A DNA stretch of 64,000 bases, taken from contig CALURK010000005.1 of the NCBI GenBank assembly GCA_944323165.1, forward strand, positions 62,001 to 126,000, read 5' to 3'. The notes under the pieces are model-generated. The model ran no database searches, was not told where the DNA came from, and saw only the letters and a program-made list of their open reading frames with translations. Shown here one piece after another: positions 17,704 to 29,312 of this stretch (the stretch's first letter is position 1; each line of letters starts with the position of its first letter). The DNA comes from Candidatus Gastranaerophilales bacterium (GTDB taxonomy: Bacteria; Cyanobacteriota; Vampirovibrionia; Gastranaerophilales; Gastranaerophilaceae). Made by a program: the position numbers and the translations under genes.

Positions 17704-18534
17704 TTATTCTCCAAGTTCTTTTAACGCCTGTTCTAATTGCTCATCATTAGGAGCCTTACCATGCCAGCCGGCCTGATTTTCCATAAAAGAAACTCCCTTT
17801 CCTTTTATAGTATGAGCAATGATGGCGCAAGGCTTTGTGCATTTTTTTGCAGTTTCTATTGCATCATAGATTTCATCAAAATTATGACCATTAATTTCAA
17901 TGACATTCCAATTAAAAGCCTTAAGTTTGTCATTTAAGTTATCAAGAGCCATAACATTCTCTGTACACCCATCAATTTGTAATTTGTTTCTATCAATAAT
18001 TACTATAAGGTTATCTAATTTCCTGTGTGCAGCTTGCATAAAAGCTTCCCAACAGGAGCCTTCTTGCAATTCTCCATCTCCGGTGTATACAACTACATTA
18101 GCCGGATTGTTTTTTAACTTTAATCCCAAAGCCATACCGCATCCTATAGATAGTCCCTGTCCTAAAGAGCCTGTCGAAGTTTCTATTCCCGGAAGGTATT
18201 TTTTAGCCGGATGGCCTTGTAATCTTGAATTAATTTTTCTAAAGGTCATCAATTCTTCTTCAGGGATAATATCTTTCATTGCAAGAATAGAATATAAAAG
18301 GGGGGAAGCGTGGCCCTTTGACAGAATAAATCTATCCCTATTTTCAAAATCGGGAGAATTATTCCATTCTTTTGGAATATTAAGAGCTTTTTTATATAAA
18401 ACTGTCAAAATATCAGCTCCAGAAAGAGATCCGCCTGGGTGGCCTGATTTGGAATTATGAACCATTTTTACAATGTTTCTTCTAACAATATTTGCAGTTT
18501 CTTTTAACTCTTTTTTTTCTATTTCTGTTAACAT
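17704..18534 (-). CDS. Transketolase, N-terminal (thiamine-diphosphate-binding) subunit
   Basis: The N-terminal half of a split transketolase, 276 residues. It carries the SGHPGGSLSGAD motif, SKGHASPLLYS, STGSLGQGLSIGCGMAL and the thiamine diphosphate/Mg motif GDGELQEGSCWEA. Split transketolases work as a pair with a separate pyrimidine-binding C-terminal subunit, in the pentose phosphate pathway or in supply of sugar precursors. That partner is not adjacent or anywhere in the window, which is unusual. Nine bases separate it from the wecG gene upstream and the small Cys protein follows. Confidence 0.93.
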   Translation of the reverse strand: MLTEIEKKELKETANIVRRNIVKMVHNSKSGHPGGSLSGADILTVLYKKALNIPKEWNNSPDFENRDRFILSKGHASPLLYSILAMKDIIPEEELMTFRKINSRLQGHPAKKYLPGIETSTGSLGQGLSIGCGMALGLKLKNNPANVVVYTGDGELQEGSCWEAFMQAAHRKLDNLIVIIDRNKLQIDGCTENVMALDNLNDKLKAFNWNVIEINGHNFDEIYDAIETAKKCTKPCAIIAHTIKGKGVSFMENQAGWHGKAPNDEQLEQALKELGE

Positions 18535-18543
18535 CTTAACCTC

Positions 18544-19263
18544 TTAAATTTTGTCTTTATAGCTAAGAACCTTAATTAAAAATAATGGTATTGCAGGAAA
18601 AATTCTCTTAAATCTGGAAGGTTGCATAATTGTTCTATATAGCCATTCCAAACACAATACTTGAAAAATCTTTGGAGCTCTCTTTACTGTTCCAGACCAA
18701 ACGTCTAAGCTCCCCCCGATACCAACCATAAGAGCAGGATTGAGTTCTTTTTTTGCTTCATATATAAATTTTTCTTGTTTAGGAGCACCGAGAGCGACTA
18801 AAATTAATTTAGGTGAATATTTTTTTAAATCTTCATAAATCTCAGAATTATTGTCAAAATAGCCGTTATGGTAATATACAATATTGAGTCCGCTTATTTC
18901 ATTTTCTAAATTTTTAACTGCTTTTGTTATAACATCTTCTTTTGCTCCAATGATAGCAACAGGAATATTACTAAGAGCTGCTTCTTGTAGTAATCTTTTA
19001 GCAAAATCCACTCCTGGAATTCTTTCAGCGCTTTTCCCTGTTAGCTTAAGCCCCAATGTAACTCCAACTCCATCAGGAATTACCATTTCAGCCTCTCTAA
19101 TAATGTTTTCAAAATAAGAATCGCTTTCTGCAGCCTGAAACATTTCAGGATTAATTGTTATAACCTGAGCTACTCTGTCGCCGTCAATTAAGCTTTTAGC
19201 TTTTGTAATGGCTTCGTCAAATGAATAATTATCAATTTTAAATCCCAGTAAATCTACACTCAT
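18544..19263 (-). CDS. WecG/TagA/CpsF-family glycosyltransferase
   Basis: A 239-residue family GT26 enzyme that adds a ManNAc-type or related sugar to a polyprenyl-linked intermediate in surface polysaccharide synthesis. Family motifs seen: VITINPEMFQAA, PDGVGVTLGLKLTGKS, ERIPGVDF, VALGAPKQEKFI and GVGGSLDVWSG-like GIGGSLDVWSGTVKRAPKIF, ending with the WLYRTIMQPSRFKR membrane-association region. The ATG at 19263 lies six bases behind TATAAT with no ribosome binding site, a candidate leaderless gene. It heads the unit containing the transketolase half. Confidence 0.93.
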   Translation of the reverse strand: MSVDLLGFKIDNYSFDEAITKAKSLIDGDRVAQVITINPEMFQAAESDSYFENIIREAEMVIPDGVGVTLGLKLTGKSAERIPGVDFAKRLLQEAALSNIPVAIIGAKEDVITKAVKNLENEISGLNIVYYHNGYFDNNSEIYEDLKKYSPKLILVALGAPKQEKFIYEAKKELNPALMVGIGGSLDVWSGTVKRAPKIFQVLCLEWLYRTIMQPSRFKRIFPAIPLFLIKVLSYKDKI

Positions 19264-19366: not shown

Positions 19367-19386
19367 ATGAGAGAAAGGAGTTTAAT

Positions 19387-19701
19387 ATGAAAAAAATCTT
19401 AACATTAATGGCTATTGTTGCACTAACAGGGGCAATTGCTGCAAATGCTGCAGAATCAAGACTAGAGAATTTTGTAAACAAACAATTATCTCCAATTACC
19501 CAGAAGGAGAAAGAATTGAATGCTAAGATGGAAGCTCAACAAAAGGCAAACGAAGCAAAACAAGCAGAATTAAAGAAACAACAAGAAGAGCGTCAGGCTG
19601 CCAGAGAAAAACAAAAACAAGAAGCTCAAGCAAGACGCCAGGCAACAAAGGATGCTATCCAAGCTGAAAAAGATTACTGGAATTCACTAATTAAAAAATA
19701 A
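19387..19701 (+). CDS. Small secreted, charged helical protein (paralogue A)
   Basis: I do not recognise the family. The 104 residues begin with a Sec signal peptide (MKKILTLMAIVALTGAIAA, likely cut at ANA-AES). The mature part has ESRLENFVNKQLSPITQKEK, then about 45 residues almost wholly Lys, Gln, Glu, Ala and Arg (KKQQEERQAAREKQKQEAQ), and ends in KDYWNSLIKK. The middle should be one long solvent-exposed helix. It is paralogous to the next gene: both share the ESR..(F/W)VN...SPIT(Q/K)KE block, a charged helix and an aromatic C-terminal FW/YW.SL motif. A strong GAAAGGAG ribosome binding site and 11-base spacing to the next gene suggest a high-output two-gene unit. Confidence 0.82.
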   Translation: MKKILTLMAIVALTGAIAANAAESRLENFVNKQLSPITQKEKELNAKMEAQQKANEAKQAELKKQQEERQAAREKQKQEAQARRQATKDAIQAEKDYWNSLIKK

Positions 19702-19712
19702 AGGAAGGTAAT

Positions 19713-20084
19713 ATGAAAAAGATTCTTACTACTTTAATTGCCATAGTGTTAACTTCTTCTATAGCGGTTAATGCAGCAGAGTCAAGGGTTCAACATTGGG
19801 TAAATCATTGGATGTCGCCTATTACCAAAAAGGAAAGAGCGTACAATGATAAGCAAGCAGAAGCTCATAAAGCTCATAAAGCCAGACAGGCTAAATTAAA
19901 GAAACAGCAAAAAGAGCGTCAAAAAGCTTACGAAAAAAAGAAAAAAGACAGAGAAAAAGCTTATAAAAAGCAGCAAAGAGAAAGGGAAAAAGCTTTAAGG
20001 GAAGCTCAAAAACGAAGAGATGACAGAAATAAAGCTATTCGTGATGAGGCGAATTTCTGGAAATCACTTTTTCATAGAAAATAA
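19713..20084 (+). CDS. Small secreted, charged helical protein (paralogue B)
   Basis: A 123-residue paralogue of the preceding gene, with signal peptide (MKKILTTLIAIVLTSSIA, cut near VNA-AES), ESRVQHWVNHWMSPITKKER, a very basic helix (KKQQKERQKAYEKKKKDREK and similar) and the end ANFWKSLFHRK. It is more basic than paralogue A (Lys/Arg rich against Lys/Gln/Glu), so the pair could associate electrostatically with each other or with the envelope (inference). AAGGAAGG precedes the ATG. A strong terminator follows. Family unknown to me. Confidence 0.82.
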   Translation: MKKILTTLIAIVLTSSIAVNAAESRVQHWVNHWMSPITKKERAYNDKQAEAHKAHKARQAKLKKQQKERQKAYEKKKKDREKAYKKQQREREKALREAQKRRDDRNKAIRDEANFWKSLFHRK

Positions 20085-20094
20085 TAAAGTCTTG

Positions 20095-20123
20095 TAGGGA
20101 AGTTTATAACTTCCCTATTTTTT
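20095..20123 (+). terminator. Terminator of the secreted helical pair
   Basis: Ten-bp perfect stem TAGGGAAGTT / AACTTCCCTA with a three-base TAT loop, followed by six Ts and a G. It ends only 14 bases before the purB start codon, leaving just enough room for the purB -10 element. Confidence 0.9.
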
Positions 20124-20137: not shown

Positions 20138-21421
20138 ATGATTGATAGATATTCAAGAGAAGAAATAAAGAAAATTTGGGACTTAAATACTAAGTTTGAT
20201 TATTACCTGAAAGTCGAGCTTGCTGTATGTGAAGCTTATTCTAAGCTGGGAGTGATTCCGACTCAGGCATTAGATGAAATTAAACAAAAAGCTGGGTTTT
20301 CTCTTGAGCGTATTGATGAAATAGAAAGAGAAGTTAAGCATGATGTAATTGCCTTTTTAACTTCTGTTAATGAAAATGTTGGTAAGGAAAACGCAAAGTA
20401 TATTCATATGGGCCTTACAAGTTCTGATGTTATAGATACTGCATTTGCTCTTCAAATAGTAGACAGTTCGAAGATTATTATGAAAGAACTCGATAACTTG
20501 ATAAGTGTTATAAGAGAAAAGGCTTTTAAGTATAAAAATACTGTTTGTATAGGACGTTCTCACGGAGTGCATGCAGAAGTTATGACTTTCGGTTTTAAAT
20601 TGTTGAATTGGTTAGATGGTTTAGAAAGAGCTAAGAAAAGTTTAATTTTTGCCCTAGAAGAGATTTCAGTAGGTCAAATATCAGGTCCTGTCGGTACTTA
20701 TAGCAATGTACCAGTAGAAATAGAAGCTTTAACTTGTGAGATTTTAGGTCTGAAACCGGCTAAGATTTCAACACAAATAATATCAAGGGACAGGCATGCT
20801 AAATTTATGTCATCTCTTGCAGTTTTAGCTGGCTTAATAGAACAGTTCGCAACAGAGATAAGACATTTGCAAAAAACAGAAGTAAGAGAAGTTGAAGAAG
20901 GTTTTGGAGCAAATCAAAAAGGCTCTTCTGCTATGCCTCATAAGAAAAATCCTGTTTTGTGCGAAAACCTTTGCGGGCTCTCTCGTGTAGTCCGCTCAAA
21001 CTTAATTGCTGCTTTAGAGAATATAAATCTCTGGCATGAAAGAGATATTTCTCATAGTTCTGCAGAGAGAATTATTTTCCCTGATTCACTCATTCTTATA
21101 GACTTTATGCTTCATAGATTCAAGGGTGTAATGGAAAATCTTGTAGTTCACGAAGATAATATGCTAAAAAATACGAAGCTTTATGGCGGGGTTGTTTTTT
21201 CACAAAAAGTTTTGTTAAAGCTGGTTGAAGAAAAAGGATATTCAAGAGAAGATGCTTATAGAATAGTACAAAAACATGCTCTTAATGCTTTAAATGGTGG
21301 CAATTTTAAAGAAGGCTTGAGGTCAGAAAATATACTTTCTGACGCTGAGTTAGAAGATTGCTTTGACGTTAATGATTATTTAAAGAATATCGACAAAATC
21401 TTTGAAAGATTTTCTGTTTAG
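20138..21421 (+). CDS. purB: Adenylosuccinate lyase
   Basis: PurB acts twice in purine synthesis, cleaving SAICAR and adenylosuccinate with release of fumarate. The 427 residues match the short bacterial form: MIDRYSREEIKKIWDL start, HDVIAFLTSVNE, MGLTSSDVIDTA, the catalytic His in RSHGVHAE and the superfamily signature GSSAMPHKKNPVLCENL. It is alone between a terminator and a gap of 224 bases and appears to be translated from a leaderless mRNA. Confidence 0.96.
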   Translation: MIDRYSREEIKKIWDLNTKFDYYLKVELAVCEAYSKLGVIPTQALDEIKQKAGFSLERIDEIEREVKHDVIAFLTSVNENVGKENAKYIHMGLTSSDVIDTAFALQIVDSSKIIMKELDNLISVIREKAFKYKNTVCIGRSHGVHAEVMTFGFKLLNWLDGLERAKKSLIFALEEISVGQISGPVGTYSNVPVEIEALTCEILGLKPAKISTQIISRDRHAKFMSSLAVLAGLIEQFATEIRHLQKTEVREVEEGFGANQKGSSAMPHKKNPVLCENLCGLSRVVRSNLIAALENINLWHERDISHSSAERIIFPDSLILIDFMLHRFKGVMENLVVHEDNMLKNTKLYGGVVFSQKVLLKLVEEKGYSREDAYRIVQKHALNALNGGNFKEGLRSENILSDAELEDCFDVNDYLKNIDKIFERFSV

Positions 21422-21645: not shown

Positions 21646-22029
21646 ATGTTTATAATAGATTTGTTGAATAAAATTAATCCAAAATGTCAGCATGAGCATG
21701 TGACACCCGATAAAGATTGTGGATATTGTCCTGATTGCGGTAAATTTATAAAAAATGAATGGTATATTACAAGATGTGCATGCTGTGGAGTTAAATTAAG
21801 AGCAGTGATTAAAAATGGAGAAGTTGTTCCGCAACACCATTATTGTTCAAATTGTGGAGGGGAAGAGTTTGTCGTTGAAAAATTGGAGCAAATAAACTTT
21901 ATAGACATTAATTTTGCAGTTCTAAAGAAACGTGTGGTAGAAGATGATAATAATAAAATTTGTTCTACAACACGCTGTTGGCAAGAAAGAACAGACGTGC
22001 AACCCAAATTGCTAGTACAATATTTGTAA
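21646..22029 (+). CDS. Zinc-ribbon protein of unknown function
   Basis: A 127-residue protein with about a dozen Cys and His residues in ribbon-like knuckles: CQHEHVTPDKDCGYCPDCGK, CACCGVKLRA and HHYCSNCGGEEF. This suggests two or three zinc sites and a role in nucleic acid or protein binding. A GAGAGG ribosome binding site precedes the ATG. The final 65 bases overlap, in antisense, the 3' end of the well-conserved spmB gene, so the C-terminal tail after about residue 106 is probably a read-through extension with little constraint (inference). Family unknown. Confidence 0.7.
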   Translation: MFIIDLLNKINPKCQHEHVTPDKDCGYCPDCGKFIKNEWYITRCACCGVKLRAVIKNGEVVPQHHYCSNCGGEEFVVEKLEQINFIDINFAVLKKRVVEDDNNKICSTTRCWQERTDVQPKLLVQYL

Positions 22030-22489
22030 TATCAGCGATTATTCCTGTAAGAAGTGCGTATCTGTATTTTTTTATGCCAACAGATCCAAAATAAACAGCA
22101 AGCACATAAAAAGTTGTTTCCGAGCTACCTACCATTATGGCTGCGAGCTTAGCAATATAAGAATCTGCTCCAGACTGTTTAACGATATCAGAAAATAGCC
22201 CAAGAGCAGCTGAGCCTGATAGTGGTCTTGTGAATATAAGCGGTATAATATCTGGCGGAATAATATTGTTAGCGAAAGCTTTAACGTATTCAAGTACTCC
22301 GGATGCTCTAAACATTGAAACTGCTACAATAATAGCTACCAGGTACGGAATTATTGAAATTGAAACTTTAAATCCGTCTTTTGCTCCTTCTATGAATTCT
22401 TCATAAACAGGAACCTTTTTTATTAATCCGAAAGAAAGGATAAATAATATCATAAGAGGGAGTATATAAAGAGAAATTTTTTCAATCAT
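21965..22489 (-). CDS. spmB: Spore maturation protein B-like membrane protein
   Basis: A 174-residue integral membrane protein of the SpmB / nucleoside-recognition (Gate) domain family, with several hydrophobic helices and the conserved FTRPLSGSAALGLF and VGSSETTFYVLAVYFGSVG segments. In Bacillus the SpmA/SpmB pair affects spore core dehydration, but the pair is widespread in bacteria that do not sporulate, where the substrate is unknown. It overlaps spmA by eight bases and its 3' end overlaps the convergent zinc-ribbon gene by 65 bases. Confidence 0.92.
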   Translation of the reverse strand: MIEKISLYILPLMILFILSFGLIKKVPVYEEFIEGAKDGFKVSISIIPYLVAIIVAVSMFRASGVLEYVKAFANNIIPPDIIPLIFTRPLSGSAALGLFSDIVKQSGADSYIAKLAAIMVGSSETTFYVLAVYFGSVGIKKYRYALLTGIIADITNIVLAIWVARLFFLANSVL

Positions 22490-23066
22490 ACTTCCTCCAG
22501 ACCTTTTGTAAAATTAAAGCTACAATAATTGCAGTCACAAAAGAAAGTGATGTAACAATAAGTGTAGGTAAGATAATTTCAGTAGGATTCTTAGCTCCAA
22601 ATCCCACCAATATAGCGATAACTGTAGCCGGAATGATTTGAAATCCAGCAGTATTCATCCCTAAGAACATACACATTGCATCTGTTGCTTTTGATTTATC
22701 AGGATTATCTTCTTGTAGTTCTTTCATAACTTTTAAGCCTATGGGAGTTGCTGCATTTGTAAGTCCAAGGGCATTTGCGGTTATACTCATAGTTATATCA
22801 CCTATTGCAGGGCTGTCTTTTTTTACATCCTTGAAAAGAAATTTTGTTATAGGAAAAAGGAATTTAGAGATTATTTGCACTAAACCGCTTTTTTCTGCAA
22901 TTCTCATAATTCCAAGCCAGAAAGCCATAATTCCAATAAGAGATAGCGAAATTTCTACCGCAGTATTGCATGCTCCAAGCATGGAACTTACAACTTTATC
23001 AAGTGTGTGATTAAAAATCCCCGCAACTATTGATACTGAAATAAGAATAAAAAATATATAATTCAT
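22482..23066 (-). CDS. spmA: Spore maturation protein A-like membrane protein
   Basis: The 194-residue partner of SpmB, also with the nucleoside-recognition Gate fold. Conserved parts include FWLGIMRIAEKSGLVQ, the MSITANALGLTNAATPIGLKVMKEL core (in parts) and MFLGMNTAGFQIIPAT. Multi-pass membrane protein. The ATG has no ribosome binding site; TAATAT lies six bases upstream, so this may be another leaderless start, less convincing than purB. Divergent from the giant coiled-coil gene. Confidence 0.92.
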   Translation of the reverse strand: MNYIFFILISVSIVAGIFNHTLDKVVSSMLGACNTAVEISLSLIGIMAFWLGIMRIAEKSGLVQIISKFLFPITKFLFKDVKKDSPAIGDITMSITANALGLTNAATPIGLKVMKELQEDNPDKSKATDAMCMFLGMNTAGFQIIPATVIAILVGFGAKNPTEIILPTLIVTSLSFVTAIIVALILQKVWRKYD

Positions 23067-23159: not shown

Positions 23160-26100
23160 ATGGCAGACATAAATAATTTTACGGAGATTACAGAGAATTT
23201 TGATACAATCAAAACCTTGCTAAATTCAATAAGGGCACAGGGTATATTGAATACTTCTGACGTCGATAAACTTCTGGCAGGTATTAATTCCAAATTAGAA
23301 AAGCTTAATACAGAAGAGGACATTGATTTAATAAAAATCTTTCTGACAGAACTTAAGCAAAATCTTGATGAAAGACACAGTGTATTGTTATCTAAATTTG
23401 GTGCTATTGAGTCTTTATTCTCAAATCTTCTTAAAAATAGTTCTGAAGCTTTAAAATCAAGTGAAGTAAAGGAACTGTTTGATATTGTTGCAACCAATCT
23501 GTCTGTATTTTCAAGGGAAGTTGTTTCGCAAAAAGAAACTCTATCTGACATAACTCTACGTTTAGATGCGATGAGATCTGATGATTCTCAGAAAAAAGAA
23601 ATTGTAAAAAATATTTCATTTTTAAAAAATGATTTAGAGCGTCTTAATAACGGCTTTGATTCAATAGTATTGAGCCTGAACGAGAACTTTAAAACAGTTA
23701 TAAAATCAATTTCAAGTGTTGATCCAACAGAGGTTGTATCTAATTTTAGCAAGGAATTGGAAGATATTACTAATTCTTCTAACACTATATTGTCAGCTAT
23801 TCAAGTTTTAGACAAGAAAAATTTGCAAATAGAAGATGCAATAAAAGGTTTGGCAACACATGAAGATTTAGTAAGTACAAAAAAATGGATAAGTGATTTA
23901 GCTAATCAAGAACAACAGTTAACGCAATCTGTAGATAATTTAGCTGATAAATACTATAAAATAGACAATTTAGCAGAAAAAATTGACGCTTCTGTCGATA
24001 TAATAGCCGGCATGAAGACTATTATTGCTGACAAAGATGAGCAGAGCTCAAAAGCTATTATCGACAGACTAAATCAACTTGAAGATTTTGTTCGGGATGT
24101 AACTTCTAACAAAGAATTTGATGAGTTCAAGAAAACTCTTGAACAAACATTAAATGGAATATACAATGCATCTACCTCTCTACACTCGTCACTGAATTTA
24201 ACAGGAGATGAGATAAAGAAGATTAGCGAAGCAATAAGAACTCTCGATATAAATGTTAATTTCAAGAGTTTAGCGTCTGATTTATCAAAGGCAGAACAAG
24301 GTATAAAAGAGCATGTAAGTGTAGAATCTGATAAAGTAATTCAATTAGTTGATGTAAATGCTACAAGGACTTTAAATGAGTTAACAAATAATGCGGATAG
24401 TTTATCTGACAAGCTTGTTGAAACACAGCGACTTATTACCGGGTTGTGCGAAAAAAGTTTTTCTGATTTAGAAGAAAATATTTCTGGTTTGCGAAATGTT
24501 GTTTCACAGATTGATGAAAATAATGTTTCTGCTAATAATGCCATTTTTTCAAATATTACTGATAGACTGGCTTTGTTTGAAGCCGGTTTAAAATCTTCAT
24601 TAGAAAAGCAAGAAAATTATGTAGCTAATTCTTCTAAGGATCTTTTGGAACAGATTAGCAATATAAAGGATTTGTCAGGTGTTTTAGATTACAAATTAGA
24701 TTCTTCAGTAATAGAAATAAATAATGCAAAGACAGAATTTTCAGGTTTAAAAAAAGCTGTAGAAGAAATTTTAGCTTTAGATTTTGTAAGTAAGGTAAGC
24801 GATTTTAAGGTAGATTTGTATGCTGCCAAACAAGAGCTGACTAATCTTTTTGAAGCAACAACAAATGATTTTTCTGAAAAATTCTCAAATGATTTGTTTA
24901 GTAAATATGAACTTTTGACTAGTAAGCTTGATAGTGTAGAAACTGATATAAAAAAGGTTCAAGCAGAGTCTTTAAATAGTTTAAAAGTTTCGTTAGACAA
25001 TATATCATCTTCTCTTGTAGATATATTATCTTATGTAAGTTCAGTAAAGGAAATCAGTACAGAGGGTATTGAAGCTAAGTTAGATGAAATTTCAAAAAAT
25101 GTAAGTGATAATAGTTTAAACTATATAGAAAGTGTAAAAGATGCTGTAGATATTGTAAGAATTCAGGTAGAGAATAATATAAAAAGTTTACAGGAAGACA
25201 CTTATAAGCAGGTTAAAAGTTTAAATTCTTCAATTGAAACTTCAAGTGGTATAATTCGTGAAGATATAAAAAAATCTTATAACAAATTACTTGAAGTGCA
25301 GAAGTGCTTTGAAGACGTTCAAGGAGTGTTACAGCAGAATAATTCATCTTTTACTGAGAATATAGAAGGTATTGTAGAAAAGGCTTCAAAAATTAAAGAT
25401 GAGTTTGATAATAAGCTGATATCTCTAAAAAATTCAATAATAGAGAAAGTTGCTGATTTCCAGAAAGATTTTACATGCGAAAATGCAGATAAAATAAGTG
25501 AAATTAAATTTATTTCAGAAAATTTACATACAAAACAACTTGAAAACTCTCAAGAGGTAAAAGAAGAATTACGCGGAGAAATCTTTAAGTTAGCCGGAAC
25601 ATTAAAATTAAATATTGAAGAGTTGGCAGAACAGTTGGCTGGTAATTCTTCAAAACTTGATACTGTAAATCATGATATTGTCAATCTGATAAATAACGAT
25701 TTTAAATCACAGGTGGAAACTTTTACAGGTTCAGTGTCAGAAACAATGAACGATTTCAAGGAAGGATTGGGAGAAAAATTAGATGATAATTATTCAAAAT
25801 TATCTGATTTAGAATCTTCAGTGAATAGTTTATCAACGACTACAACAACATCCTTAACTTCAACTTTGGCAAAGGTTTTAGACAATTTTGTTTCTTTAAA
25901 GGCTTTGCTTGGCAATTTGAATGAAAAAACATCTGAAGATTTTCAAAAAGCTGTTGATACAATAATAAATGAATTTGCAAATTTAAAAGATAAGATAGAA
26001 AGTTTTGACAGTACAATTGACGAGGATTTAACAAGGCAGCTGTCCATAATAGAAAATAATTTTAACGATTTGAGCAGCAATTTAGGAAACTTTTTTGCTC

Positions 26101-29100
26101 AATCAAATCATTTAATAGGCAGTACAATAAGCAATGGCTTGTCAAATGTTTCCGGAACGTTGAGAGAAACCGTTCTGGAAAGTCTTGAACAATATAAAAA
26201 TAAGATAAATTCAACATTTGATGATATATCAGAAAAAAATGACCTACAAATTAATTTGATGGAAGAAAAAGCAAAGGAATTGAATGATATACTTCAAAAG
26301 ACTTTGGATGAACAAAATTCAATATCTTCAAATAAATTGTCTGAGTTGACTCAAAATTTAAAGAATATATTGGAAGAAAATATTGAACTAACTTCGGCAG
26401 ATTATAGTTCTTTAAAGGAAAAATTTAATGAATTATTGAAAAATGTAGAAAATCAAAATAAAGTAACTGCGGAGTTTTTAAAAGAGGCAACAGAATCTAT
26501 AAATAGCGATTTAAAAGCTCAAGAGAACTCATTATCTGTAAGAATAGAAGCAGCTCAAAATGTATTAAAGGAAACTCAAGATGAGTATGGAAAAGTAATT
26601 ACATCACAGGTTTCATCAGTATTAAATGAAATTAATTCCATAAGCAGAGGTTTGGATGAAGCTGCTCAAGATATAAATAATAATGTTTCTAAAGAAATTT
26701 TAGACACATTTAATGAGTTATATGAGAAAATGAACTCTTTATTTGAGCAAACAACATCGAATTTGTCATCACTGAGCAACAGTAACAACGCCCAACAATT
26801 AGGGGAATTAAATGCAAAAACACTGGAAATAAAGGATTTATTTACAAGTTTAAATGAACGCTTGGATAAAGATGAAATTTCGAGAATGAATGTATTTCAA
26901 TCTCAATTAAAAGAATTAAGTAATTCTTTCAATGCATTAATAGAGGATACTAAGAATGTAACTAAAAAAGAAGTATCATCTATTTCGCAAATGTTGATAC
27001 AAAGCAATAAGGAAATAATGTCGGATGTAGAGCAGTCTATTGAAGATAAAGTAAATTCAATTCTGTCTACAAGTGCTGATATTGCTGCAGGAGAGCTACA
27101 AACAATTGAATCTTATGCAAATAAAATAATAGATCAGGTTAAAGCTTCTCAGGAAGCTCTGAATTTAAGCAAGGATTTCATAACTGATTTTGTAAAGAAT
27201 GAGTTGTCTATAATTTCGGATAACATAGAAAAAGAATCAGATATTCTGGTTAAAGATTTATTAGAACAAATGAGTTTAATGAAGGATTTCCAGCGCGATG
27301 AGATTACGCGTTTAACAGCAGAAATCGAAGGTGCTGTGGAAGACAGTATTTACAATAATATAAACGAGTTAAAATCTTATGTTGACATAAAAACTGACAC
27401 ATCAATATTAAATAGTAAATTAGATGAAATAAATTTATCTCTAAACAAAACGACAGAGGATATATTAACTGCCTCCAATAATATGTTAACTGCGAGTGTA
27501 TTTGATAATGCAATCGCAGATTTGAGGTCTGCAAATAATGTTTTAATTACGTCGTTAGCAGATAGTTTAAATTCTCAAATACAAGCGTTTGTTAAAAATA
27601 CTTTACTGAAAGATATAGATGATAAATTTAATCTATTTGATAAGAAATTTGTAGATACAGTAGTTGATAAATATGAAGAAATAAAAGTTATATCATCCAA
27701 GTATAATAACTCTTTTGACGTAATTCAAGCTTCCGTAAAAGATTTACTTGCAAAATTTACCGATTCAAAACAAGAAATATATAAGACTTTGTTATCCGTA
27801 GTAGATGATATAAGCAGTGATGTAGATGAATTAAGTTCAAGTTTTGCGGATTTGAAGTCACAAATATTAAATAAGTCTTTTGATGAAGCTTTTCAAAACT
27901 CAATAACTGCAGAAATTACAGAAATACAGTCATTAATAAAGGAACAATTCAGCTATGTAGAAGATATAAGTTCTCTATGTTGCAGTAATTTGCCTGAGTT
28001 AACCGAGATGAATGCTTTAGTGAAGTATAATATAATACAATCTTTAAAGGATTTGAATACGAGATTAGACGGTCAGGATTCAAATATAGAGAAAGAGCTT
28101 GATTCATTAAAAACGGATGTAATAACTCAGTTCTTAAATATATTTAATCAGATATCTTTTGTCGCCGAACAGGAAGAAATATTAGATTTTATACAGGAAA
28201 AACATTCAGAGTTAATAACTATATTAAGTCATATTGTCACTCGAAATGAAGAGATAGATACAATAAAAGATAGTGTTTCCAGTGTTGAAAATAAGGTAGA
28301 TACCGTAAAGAACGACATAGATTCTATCAATGAAAAAATAACATCTATAATATCATCGAATGGAAATGTTGATTATGTATATAGTTTGCAGGATTTAGAG
28401 TCAGATATTGCAAATCTTCGATTGACTTTGAATGATATAAAAGAAAATAATTCATCAAAAGAGTTAGAAGCGCTTATAGCGTCTACCAATAACATATATG
28501 AATTGGTGGAATCTTTGAAGAAAGAGTTCCCAAACTTTAATACAGAGGAATTTAAAAAAGATTTTGATGCTTTAAGTGAGGATATAGTAAGCATAAGTAC
28601 CAGAACTAATAAACTAATATTAGCGTCTGATGAGTCTTACAAAACATTACAGGAAAATCTTCAAGATTTTAAATTAGTAATAAATGATTTGGACGAAAGA
28701 ACTCGTAACTTTGCTCATGAAGTTGGTATTGAAAGGATAGATAATAAGCTAGGCGTTATCAATACAATGATTCAAAATGGAGCAAAAACAAATCAAGTAT
28801 TTAACCAGGTATTTGAATATTTAGCAGAATGGGTAGATAATGCCGGCAGCCAAATCTCAGCAATATCAGATAAGGTTGAAACATTAGATGATATAGGTCA
28901 AATAAAAGTAATGCTGGAAGATTTGAAAGCTGAGGCTGAAGATAATTCAGACAGTGCAGAATTAATAGATGCATTGAGTAATGTATTTGAGAAGCAGGCT
29001 AAACGAATAAGTTCATTAGAAGCAAAGCTTGACAGGGTTATTGTAGAAACTACAATAAATAATAAGAATAATAAGCTGGATTTAACACCAATAGAAGAAA

Positions 29101-29312
29101 CCTTAAATAGATTTTTGGTAGCAATAGACGATAAAATGTTGTCTCAGCAGTCCAAAATAGATTCTCTGGAGTCCAAGCTTGCGGAAGTAATGACAATGAT
29201 TAATCCAAAAGATACCGCGCAATTAACCAAAAAAGTCGGTGGTATGGATAGGCAAATAGCCAAGTTAAATAAAAGTATTGAAAAAATAGCATCACATGTT
29301 GTTGAAAAATAG
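23160..29312 (+). CDS. Giant coiled-coil protein of unknown function (2050 residues)
   Basis: I do not recognise this protein. It fills almost 10 percent of the window. From about residue 20 to the end it is dominated by heptad-like helical sequence rich in Ser, Asn, Asp, Glu, Lys and Leu, with almost no Pro, Gly, Trp or Cys (one CC pair in SSLCCSNLP near residue 1605). There is no signal peptide, membrane helix or recognisable catalytic motif. The style resembles chemoreceptor signalling helices or SMC-like rods, but no ATPase ends are present. The C-terminus (MDRQIAKLNKSIEKIASHVV) is again a coiled coil. A strong promoter and an AGTAGG-type weak ribosome binding site precede it. The GlcD-type oxidase starts inside its last 17 bases, so they are co-transcribed. 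A cytoskeletal or scaffold role is inference. Confidence 0.88.
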   Translation: MADINNFTEITENFDTIKTLLNSIRAQGILNTSDVDKLLAGINSKLEKLNTEEDIDLIKIFLTELKQNLDERHSVLLSKFGAIESLFSNLLKNSSEALKSSEVKELFDIVATNLSVFSREVVSQKETLSDITLRLDAMRSDDSQKKEIVKNISFLKNDLERLNNGFDSIVLSLNENFKTVIKSISSVDPTEVVSNFSKELEDITNSSNTILSAIQVLDKKNLQIEDAIKGLATHEDLVSTKKWISDLANQEQQLTQSVDNLADKYYKIDNLAEKIDASVDIIAGMKTIIADKDEQSSKAIIDRLNQLEDFVRDVTSNKEFDEFKKTLEQTLNGIYNASTSLHSSLNLTGDEIKKISEAIRTLDINVNFKSLASDLSKAEQGIKEHVSVESDKVIQLVDVNATRTLNELTNNADSLSDKLVETQRLITGLCEKSFSDLEENISGLRNVVSQIDENNVSANNAIFSNITDRLALFEAGLKSSLEKQENYVANSSKDLLEQISNIKDLSGVLDYKLDSSVIEINNAKTEFSGLKKAVEEILALDFVSKVSDFKVDLYAAKQELTNLFEATTNDFSEKFSNDLFSKYELLTSKLDSVETDIKKVQAESLNSLKVSLDNISSSLVDILSYVSSVKEISTEGIEAKLDEISKNVSDNSLNYIESVKDAVDIVRIQVENNIKSLQEDTYKQVKSLNSSIETSSGIIREDIKKSYNKLLEVQKCFEDVQGVLQQNNSSFTENIEGIVEKASKIKDEFDNKLISLKNSIIEKVADFQKDFTCENADKISEIKFISENLHTKQLENSQEVKEELRGEIFKLAGTLKLNIEELAEQLAGNSSKLDTVNHDIVNLINNDFKSQVETFTGSVSETMNDFKEGLGEKLDDNYSKLSDLESSVNSLSTTTTTSLTSTLAKVLDNFVSLKALLGNLNEKTSEDFQKAVDTIINEFANLKDKIESFDSTIDEDLTRQLSIIENNFNDLSSNLGNFFAQSNHLIGSTISNGLSNVSGTLRETVLESLEQYKNKINSTFDDISEKNDLQINLMEEKAKELNDILQKTLDEQNSISSNKLSELTQNLKNILEENIELTSADYSSLKEKFNELLKNVENQNKVTAEFLKEATESINSDLKAQENSLSVRIEAAQNVLKETQDEYGKVITSQVSSVLNEINSISRGLDEAAQDINNNVSKEILDTFNELYEKMNSLFEQTTSNLSSLSNSNNAQQLGELNAKTLEIKDLFTSLNERLDKDEISRMNVFQSQLKELSNSFNALIEDTKNVTKKEVSSISQMLIQSNKEIMSDVEQSIEDKVNSILSTSADIAAGELQTIESYANKIIDQVKASQEALNLSKDFITDFVKNELSIISDNIEKESDILVKDLLEQMSLMKDFQRDEITRLTAEIEGAVEDSIYNNINELKSYVDIKTDTSILNSKLDEINLSLNKTTEDILTASNNMLTASVFDNAIADLRSANNVLITSLADSLNSQIQAFVKNTLLKDIDDKFNLFDKKFVDTVVDKYEEIKVISSKYNNSFDVIQASVKDLLAKFTDSKQEIYKTLLSVVDDISSDVDELSSSFADLKSQILNKSFDEAFQNSITAEITEIQSLIKEQFSYVEDISSLCCSNLPELTEMNALVKYNIIQSLKDLNTRLDGQDSNIEKELDSLKTDVITQFLNIFNQISFVAEQEEILDFIQEKHSELITILSHIVTRNEEIDTIKDSVSSVENKVDTVKNDIDSINEKITSIISSNGNVDYVYSLQDLESDIANLRLTLNDIKENNSSKELEALIASTNNIYELVESLKKEFPNFNTEEFKKDFDALSEDIVSISTRTNKLILASDESYKTLQENLQDFKLVINDLDERTRNFAHEVGIERIDNKLGVINTMIQNGAKTNQVFNQVFEYLAEWVDNAGSQISAISDKVETLDDIGQIKVMLEDLKAEAEDNSDSAELIDALSNVFEKQAKRISSLEAKLDRVIVETTINNKNNKLDLTPIEETLNRFLVAIDDKMLSQQSKIDSLESKLAEVMTMINPKDTAQLTKKVGGMDRQIAKLNKSIEKIASHVVEK

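Follow-up and report, generated by a model that had tools for sequence, protein, structure and literature searches.

The tandem genes at window:19387-19701 and window:19713-20084, both on the plus strand, encode two members of a family of small, probably exported proteins whose hydrophobic ends appear held on one side of a plain alpha-helix across many lengths of the charged middle; the window is the whole stretch of 64,000 nucleotides of a Candidatus Gastranaerophilales bacterium that was analysed. Judged from the sequences, a hydrophobic stripe runs along one face of the predicted helix between these ends, and in adjacent pairs the second protein is the more basic. We favor, tentatively and at somewhat less than even confidence, an operonic pair of exported, straight periplasmic rods that dock side-on, most likely on an envelope surface, with both proteins acting together.

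The two open reading frames (P0001 and P0002) are 11 nucleotides apart in a genome of 1.93 Mb. Their products share 44% identity over 122 columns (BLASTP, E 1e-30), which bears out the tandem paralogous pair proposed by an earlier, sequence-only reading of this DNA. The block ESR..(F/W)VN...SPIT(Q/K)KE and the aromatic C-terminal motif (YWNSL and FWKSL) that it had described are present in both proteins, as are the ribosome binding sites and a terminator-like stem in the DNA. The features of the region are as follows.

18544..19263, minus strand: WecG/TagA/CpsF-type glycosyltransferase gene, divergent neighbor, recurrent in context I (see below)
19374..19380, plus strand: Shine-Dalgarno AAAGGAG of P0001, from sequence
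19387..19701, plus strand: P0001, first gene; precursor of 104 residues, mature net charge +5 (mature start placed by eye), E41-W98 spacing 57
19387..19452, plus strand: residues 1-22 of P0001, resembling a signal peptide; cleavage site placed by eye
19453..19521, plus strand: N-block of P0001, residues 23-45, with hydrophobics L26, V30, I37 and L44 on one face and the conserved E41
19657..19698, plus strand: C-block of P0001, residues 91-104, with I91, W98 and I102 on the same face as the N-block hydrophobics
19700..19708, plus strand: Shine-Dalgarno AAAGGAAGG of P0002, overlapping the P0001 stop codon, from sequence
19713..20084, plus strand: P0002, second gene; precursor of 123 residues, mature net charge +20 (mature start placed by eye), E41-W116 spacing 75 (57 + 18)
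19713..19778, plus strand: signal-peptide-like segment of P0002, residues 1-22, by eye; AlphaFold2 helix break at residues 18-21
19779..19847, plus strand: N-block of P0002, residues 23-45, from alignment
20037..20081, plus strand: C-block of P0002, residues 109-123, FWKSLF
20094..20118, plus strand: terminator-like stem-loop 3' of the pair, 11 pairs and then a T run; one found vs 0.5 +- 0.6 in shuffles
20138..21421, plus strand: purB, downstream neighbor, recurrent in context I

The scan that found the terminator-like stem found no promoter-like site on the plus strand just upstream of the pair. As an indicator of expression, codon usage gives a mixed sign, and the abundance expected by the sequence-only reading finds a parallel in the first gene only: measured against two genes for ribosomal proteins in the window, P0001 is closer than 39 of 45 mechanical ORFs of at least 200 residues and P0002 closer than only 9 of the 45, the reference being these two genes only and one of them itself standing among the 45.

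Both proteins begin with the signal-peptide-like N-terminus already recognized in that reading and are probably exported; a loose small-x-small motif falls within residues 15-28 in 196/196 relatives, a count without a chance control. Alignments of 27 and 30 rows give a common anatomy: the signal-peptide-like start, a hydrophobic N-block whose Glu hardly ever varies, a charged middle that differs in length between members, and a C-block that in aligned members ends in a large residue followed by Leu, Ile or Phe. AlphaFold2 monomers predict, in line with the long helix proposed earlier, one continuous helix for each window protein (residues 2-103 of P0001, mean pLDDT 80; residues 22-121 of P0002, mean pLDDT 82) and no strands in either. 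The claim that this helix is devoid of hydrophobic residues was wrong, as its middle holds three large hydrophobics in P0001 and six in P0002. In the middles of 66 nonredundant proteins, residues of opposite charge lie at i+3 and i+4 more often than expected, whichever sign comes first (z 10.0 to 11.8), and residues of like charge less often. E-K and E-R pairs three or four residues apart are described, in a passage of PMC5347031, as stabilizing single helices. Proline after residue 45 occurs in 1/196 proteins. Cysteine is found within residues 11-30 in 6/196, after residue 21 in 0/196 and in neither window protein. The last residue is Lys in 85/196, as in both window proteins, and Asp or Glu in 90/196.

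Neither window protein matches a Pfam or NCBIfam model above its cut-off, and the family is as unfamiliar as it had seemed from the sequence. The sub-threshold matches are to PF03938 (OmpH/Skp) for P0001 (16.2 bits, cut-off 32.4; P0002 is not among the matches listed), to the Asr model NF033636 for P0002 (17.8 bits, cut-off 50; absent for P0001 among the best 25 matches listed), to TolA NF007065 (14.2 and 11.6 bits, cut-off 213) and to the ApoA-II Pfam model (16.8 bits, cut-off 27). PHROGs gave weak matches for both proteins (best E 0.0011). A phage or mobile origin was discarded on these weak matches and on a search of viral contigs and phage records with P0001 only, in which it has no relative. 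A known structure was likewise discarded (PDB sequence search with profile A2, best E 0.38); Foldseek with the model of the first protein only returned no match, and none of the papers listed in the literature search is on this protein family.

The proposal of a protein family had been made to depend on homologues in related genomes, and profile searches found them in 256 of 383 genomes and 31 of 52 genera of the order sample, in 158 of 289 genomes of the class sample and in 107 of 292 of the phylum sample. Public loci with close relatives of P0001 belong to Candidatus Gastranaerophilales bacterium (18/20) or to uncultured bacterium (2/20), and a single-sequence search had hits in 56 of 97 related genomes; a few of these hits are weak and come from outside the window's taxonomic family, the Gastranaerophilaceae. 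Among the matches listed, all matching genomes of the phylum sample lie within the window's genus or family, and one genome of the class sample (G068) comes from another family of the order. When 14 genomes from other families of the order were checked, four matched with E values no higher than 0.01, and in three of these E was at most 2e-6. These matches, together with the listed rows, argue that this is mainly a protein family of the window's taxonomic family with faint relatives in neighboring families. The window's own genome has two strong copies only, the pair itself, and five further matches at E 0.03 to 0.16; many genomes of its genus have a single gene copy only.

A neighborhood census of 72 loci, including the window's own and with at least one region taken twice (L035/L063), gave two recurrent contexts. 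In context I, that of the window, the WecG/TagA-type glycosyltransferase gene is present in 39 loci, a gene for the N-terminal part of transketolase in 38 and purB in 19. Context II is marked by an RNase PH gene in 23 loci, of which one was checked, and in 18 loci by a gene that looks, by eye only, like acetolactate synthase. The neighbors in both are housekeeping genes and none makes a functional link. Because the two contexts carry different genes, a functional guess from glycosyltransferase, purB or RNase PH was dropped. The transketolase gene of the window (17704-18534, minus strand) holds the N-terminal thiamine-diphosphate domain only, as in split transketolases. Two adjoining membrane protein ORFs at 21965-23066 (minus strand) look, by eye, like the spore maturation proteins SpmA/SpmB, and an ORF of 2050 residues 3 kb downstream of the pair (23160-29312, plus strand) has five sub-threshold apolipoprotein-domain stretches, apparently helical repeats (63.5 bits, cut-off 90).

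The distance from the Glu of the N-block to the Trp, or its equivalent, of the C-block takes few values. In a first set of 112 proteins these are 39, 50, 57, 61, 64, 68, 75, 82, 86, 97, 159 and 180, and their differences from 57 are mostly steps of 7, 11 and 18 and sums of these, which restore about the same azimuth on an alpha-helix. This set was anchored by a regular expression; rows with TEKEK were corrected by two residues (59/70 to 57/68) and some other mis-set rows were corrected too, ten unanchored sequences were left out, L109:4326 was re-anchored by hand and a row of genus g43 without the KE block (L135) was removed. Once the rule had been seen, 80 further loci were fetched to test it. 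Anchored by the regular expression, 91 fresh proteins included 74 that deviate from the phase of 57 by no more than 20 degrees; another 17 could not be anchored, and some mis-anchoring was visible. The final anchoring used position-specific scores from the first set with a block threshold of 5 bits, which 196 of the 231 pooled proteins pass at both blocks and 35 fail. With it, 184 of 192 spacings up to 120 lie within 20 degrees, for a chance expectation of 1/6. The fresh loci give 76/81 (46/51 leaving out spacings of exactly 57), and counting each spacing once per genus, which lessens the weight of close relatives, gives 43/49 (30/36 without 57). Dropping the score threshold leaves 202/221 spacings up to 120 within 20 degrees.

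The 14 distinct spacings up to 120 (39, 46, 50, 57, 61, 64, 68, 72, 75, 82, 86, 97, 108 and 111) have a resultant of 0.90, a value reached by 0 of 100000 random sets; the control distances give 0.09 (Met1 to Glu) and 0.19 (Trp to C-terminus). The best angle is 99.5 degrees per residue, or 3.62 residues per turn, that of a plain alpha-helix, and the resultant falls from 0.90 at 18/5 to 0.79 at 11/3 and 0.38 at the heptad value of 7/2. Differences from 57 of 4, 7, 11, 15, 18, 25, 29, 40, 51 and 54 are all seen, and none is off phase by more than 60 degrees. No spacing among the 192 differs from 57 by 14 or 21, though other pairs of values do differ by 14 (50/64, 61/75, 68/82). Exceptions amount to 12/196 proteins that are off by at least 40 degrees. 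Eight of them have spacings up to 120 and are off by 40 to 60 degrees; the other four comprise all the proteins with spacings of 155 to 180 and are off by 60 to 120 degrees, at lengths over which small pitch errors would add up. As far as spacing can tell, the two ends of the predicted helix are thus phase-locked on one side. The length itself is free: it ranges from 39 to 180 and differs between operon partners (57/75, 50/57 and 180/57, for example). On a weakly resolved tree of 107 rows the spacing changes 39 times, a number that poor resolution may inflate, which argues against one inherited length. No phase-restoring length rule for single exported helices appears among the papers listed in the literature search.

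The face so defined is hydrophobic. With the Glu at 0 degrees and 100 degrees per residue, large hydrophobics in 70 nonredundant proteins occupy 82 to 97% of N-block positions at 300-340 degrees, and 63 to 64% of those at azimuths 20 and 240. In the C-block they fill 83 to 100% of positions at 300-340 degrees, and 80 to 100% at azimuths 200 and 240. Within the middle, the first half has them at 49% at 300 and 34% at 340 degrees, with only 7% at 320, where Lys/Arg make up 57%; in the second half they reach 59% at 320, with 19% at 300 and 14% at 340. Elsewhere in the middle their share is 0 to 11%. Lys and Arg are frequent at 240-260 and 0 degrees, flanking the stripe, and again at 120-140. For Asp/Glu the maxima are at 60-80 and 180-200 degrees, and Ala is most frequent off the stripe. 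In the window proteins, 3/3 middle hydrophobics of P0001 and 6/6 of P0002 lie on the stripe face. When Ala, large hydrophobics and Gln/Asn are analyzed one class at a time, the strongest period of each lies at 98-100 degrees. For charges, and for Ala combined with large hydrophobics (61 degrees), the peak is near 60, a harmonic of an 18-residue repeat. The restriction of the middle hydrophobics to one face indicates that the charged middle, earlier read as a spacer, would carry a thin, interrupted seam joining two end patches that face the same way.

The unlike charges of the two window proteins were correctly read from the sequence. Their divergence after duplication, as that reading had it, is an incomplete account, since the order from less to more basic recurs in both contexts. 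Among anchored same-strand adjacent pairs, the second product is more basic in 41/41. The window's genus contributes 20 of these pairs, and five other genera contribute 21, of which a single genus supplies 11. Median net charges of first and second products are +5 and +11.5 in the own genus, +4 and +17 in the others. Without the score threshold the order holds in 54/57 pairs; of the 16 below threshold, 13 keep it and three break it (L178, L208 and L225). The exception in L208 (+5 then +3) looks real, and the second ORF of L178 and the first of L225 may not belong to the family. In the other genera the first partner has 88 to 236 residues and is net acidic in 3/21 pairs, and the second has 98 to 119 residues. 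In genera g34/g40 (L109:4326-5036, L117:3298-3984, L168:709-1509) the first partner of some pairs reaches about 200 residues or more with net charges of -9 to -25, and the basic partner keeps its size. The charge order would be either ancient or arisen repeatedly. By block HMMs, 20/20 second genes are closer to the basic proteins of other genera, but only 7/20 first genes are closer to the low-charge group. A quick tree has 58 columns and leaves 60 of 104 inner branches open, and the AU test rejects neither grouping, one constrained tree even beating the free tree. On these results we make no claim that first and second genes are orthologous across genera. Genus g35 (L199, L202, L205, L208, L209, L221) has one more type of paralogue, which starts with a segment similar to SSFF..LWKFN.DV.AKID and has a C-terminus similar to LEEKREQLR.LLEE; it failed the block anchors and lies immediately 5' of the second gene in five of the six loci.

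In our preferred model, each mature protein would be one unbroken, straight alpha-helix stiffened by i+3/i+4 salt bridges, with a short hydrophobic-aromatic patch at both ends. The patches would be joined along one face by a thin hydrophobic line (L62 in P0001; L62, Y73, Y84 and L95 in P0002), and this face would dock in a straight line, most likely on the periplasmic face of a membrane or on a cell-wall polymer, with P0001, close to neutral, and the strongly basic P0002 working together. A varied length, a kept azimuth and a poor heptad fit favor rods that lie side-on, whether on an envelope surface or in a straight bundle. Against such docking, the stripe is thin and broken in the middle, and Ala is periodic too but commonest off the stripe. 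The many single-gene genomes of the genus, the three pairs that break the charge order, the proteins off phase and the lack of a functional link among the neighbors also speak against the model.

That the stripe is instead the buried core of a straight, nearly untwisted bundle (a hendecad or 18-residue coiled coil, homo- or heteromeric) with no surface bound is possible, if rather unlikely. The separate periodicities of Ala, large hydrophobics and Gln/Asn would fit it, as would the pairing of a low-charge with a basic protein, and four-residue insertions leading to 11 and 18 are known in coiled coils as stutters, according to a passage of PMC9369452. However, stripe positions that lie 7, 7 and 4 apart, several of them with Asn, Gln or Arg, would make a poor core, and the spacings fit the heptad angle badly. 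We consider it quite unlikely that the quantised lengths are a mutational by-product, in which periodic genes gain or lose whole repeat units with no selection on phase. Some inserts do look, by eye, like tandem copies (18 residues in L019, 11 in L025), and duplication of repeat units may explain part of the quantisation. Yet the many differences from 57, from 4 to 54, all remain near phase, the periodicity would itself need explaining, and the changes of spacing are many, though possibly inflated in number by the tree.

The sequence-only reading had suggested single-helix spacers that bridge envelope layers, or hold them apart by length as Lpp does. Continuous predicted helices, the salt-bridge pattern and probable export speak for such spacers, as does a lineage reported to be diderm, with lipid A genes and SomA/SomB-like porins, in a passage of PMC4040986. 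A strut across two layers has to keep its length and can leave its azimuth free, and the family has the opposite: spacings from 39 to 180, unequal lengths within one operon and a nearly fixed phase. This weakens the suggestion, as do the cysteine-free sequences after residue 21 and the divided C-terminal residues, and we hold it decidedly unlikely. We give the least credence to a soluble chaperone or protectant of the periplasm, similar to Skp, acid-shock or LEA proteins, whose charge would let it bind polyanions or unfolded proteins. The proteins are basic, charged and helical, with sub-threshold OmpH and Asr matches, but these scores are far below the cut-offs, three OmpH-family matches lie elsewhere in the same genome, and a chaperone has no need of a locked phase. 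A divergent relative beside an OmpH-type gene in three loci of one genus could also be counted in its favor: in g43 (L120:3418-3864, L135:3419-3862, L136:4464-4907) a relative without the KE block adjoins an OmpH/Skp-like gene, which is above the PF03938 cut-off in L120, the one locus of the three that was checked. Besides its three OmpH-family matches the window's genome has SLH-domain genes, so that such envelope parts exist apart from the pair.

Beyond side-on docking as such, we can envisage, as an unlikely extension, a two-subunit envelope system specific to gut Gastranaerophilales and built of straight single helices locked in phase. In it, one rod, near-neutral or acidic, would be free in length and the other, basic, would hardly vary in length; both would lie side-on along an envelope surface as an ordered coat or lattice, beside Lpp-type tethers or in their place, and length would change only by phase-restoring steps. 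The Gastranaerophilales are hardly cultured gut relatives of cyanobacteria, and little is known of how their envelope coheres. Two thirds of the genomes sampled from the order carry this family, which no searched family library matches above cut-off, and it is a good first target. If true, the phase rule would let 7, 11 or 18 inserted residues be tolerated and 5 or 9 not. The rule also suggests a way to separate side-docking helices from spanning spacers by sequence alone, usable on low-complexity charged proteins now shelved as coiled coil or disordered.

Like the Braun lipoprotein Lpp, the window proteins are small, probably exported, alpha-helical and charged and end in Lys; unlike Lpp, the family has no lipobox Cys, does not keep the C-terminal Lys, has a periodicity of 3.6 rather than 3.5, does not hold its length and comes in pairs of unlike charge. 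A cross-linked tether of the Lpp type, suggested by the terminal Lys of both window proteins, was rejected on the 90/196 acidic C-termini and the lack of Cys after residue 21. Lpp itself can be longer by 21 residues in E. coli, the periplasm then widening (from a passage of PMC8824477). With Skp/OmpH the family shares probable export and a long basic helix; it differs in that neither window protein matches PF03938 above the cut-off, in having no predicted strands and in the other OmpH genes of the genome. By the indirect test of spacing, a canonical heptad coiled coil is a poor fit (0.38 at 7/2 vs 0.90 at 18/5). Hendecad amphipathic helices, as in alpha-synuclein, apolipoproteins and group 3 LEA proteins, have a periodicity near 11/3 to 18/5 and a nonpolar line on a charged helix. 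The family resembles them in both respects, but its nonpolar face is thin and broken and its Pfam matches are sub-threshold only. With single-alpha-helix (ER/K) domains it has in common a long E/K/R helix with opposite charges at i+3/i+4; unlike them, it has a one-sided hydrophobic stripe joining hydrophobic ends, is rich in Ala and Gln, and would make the helix the whole of an exported protein.
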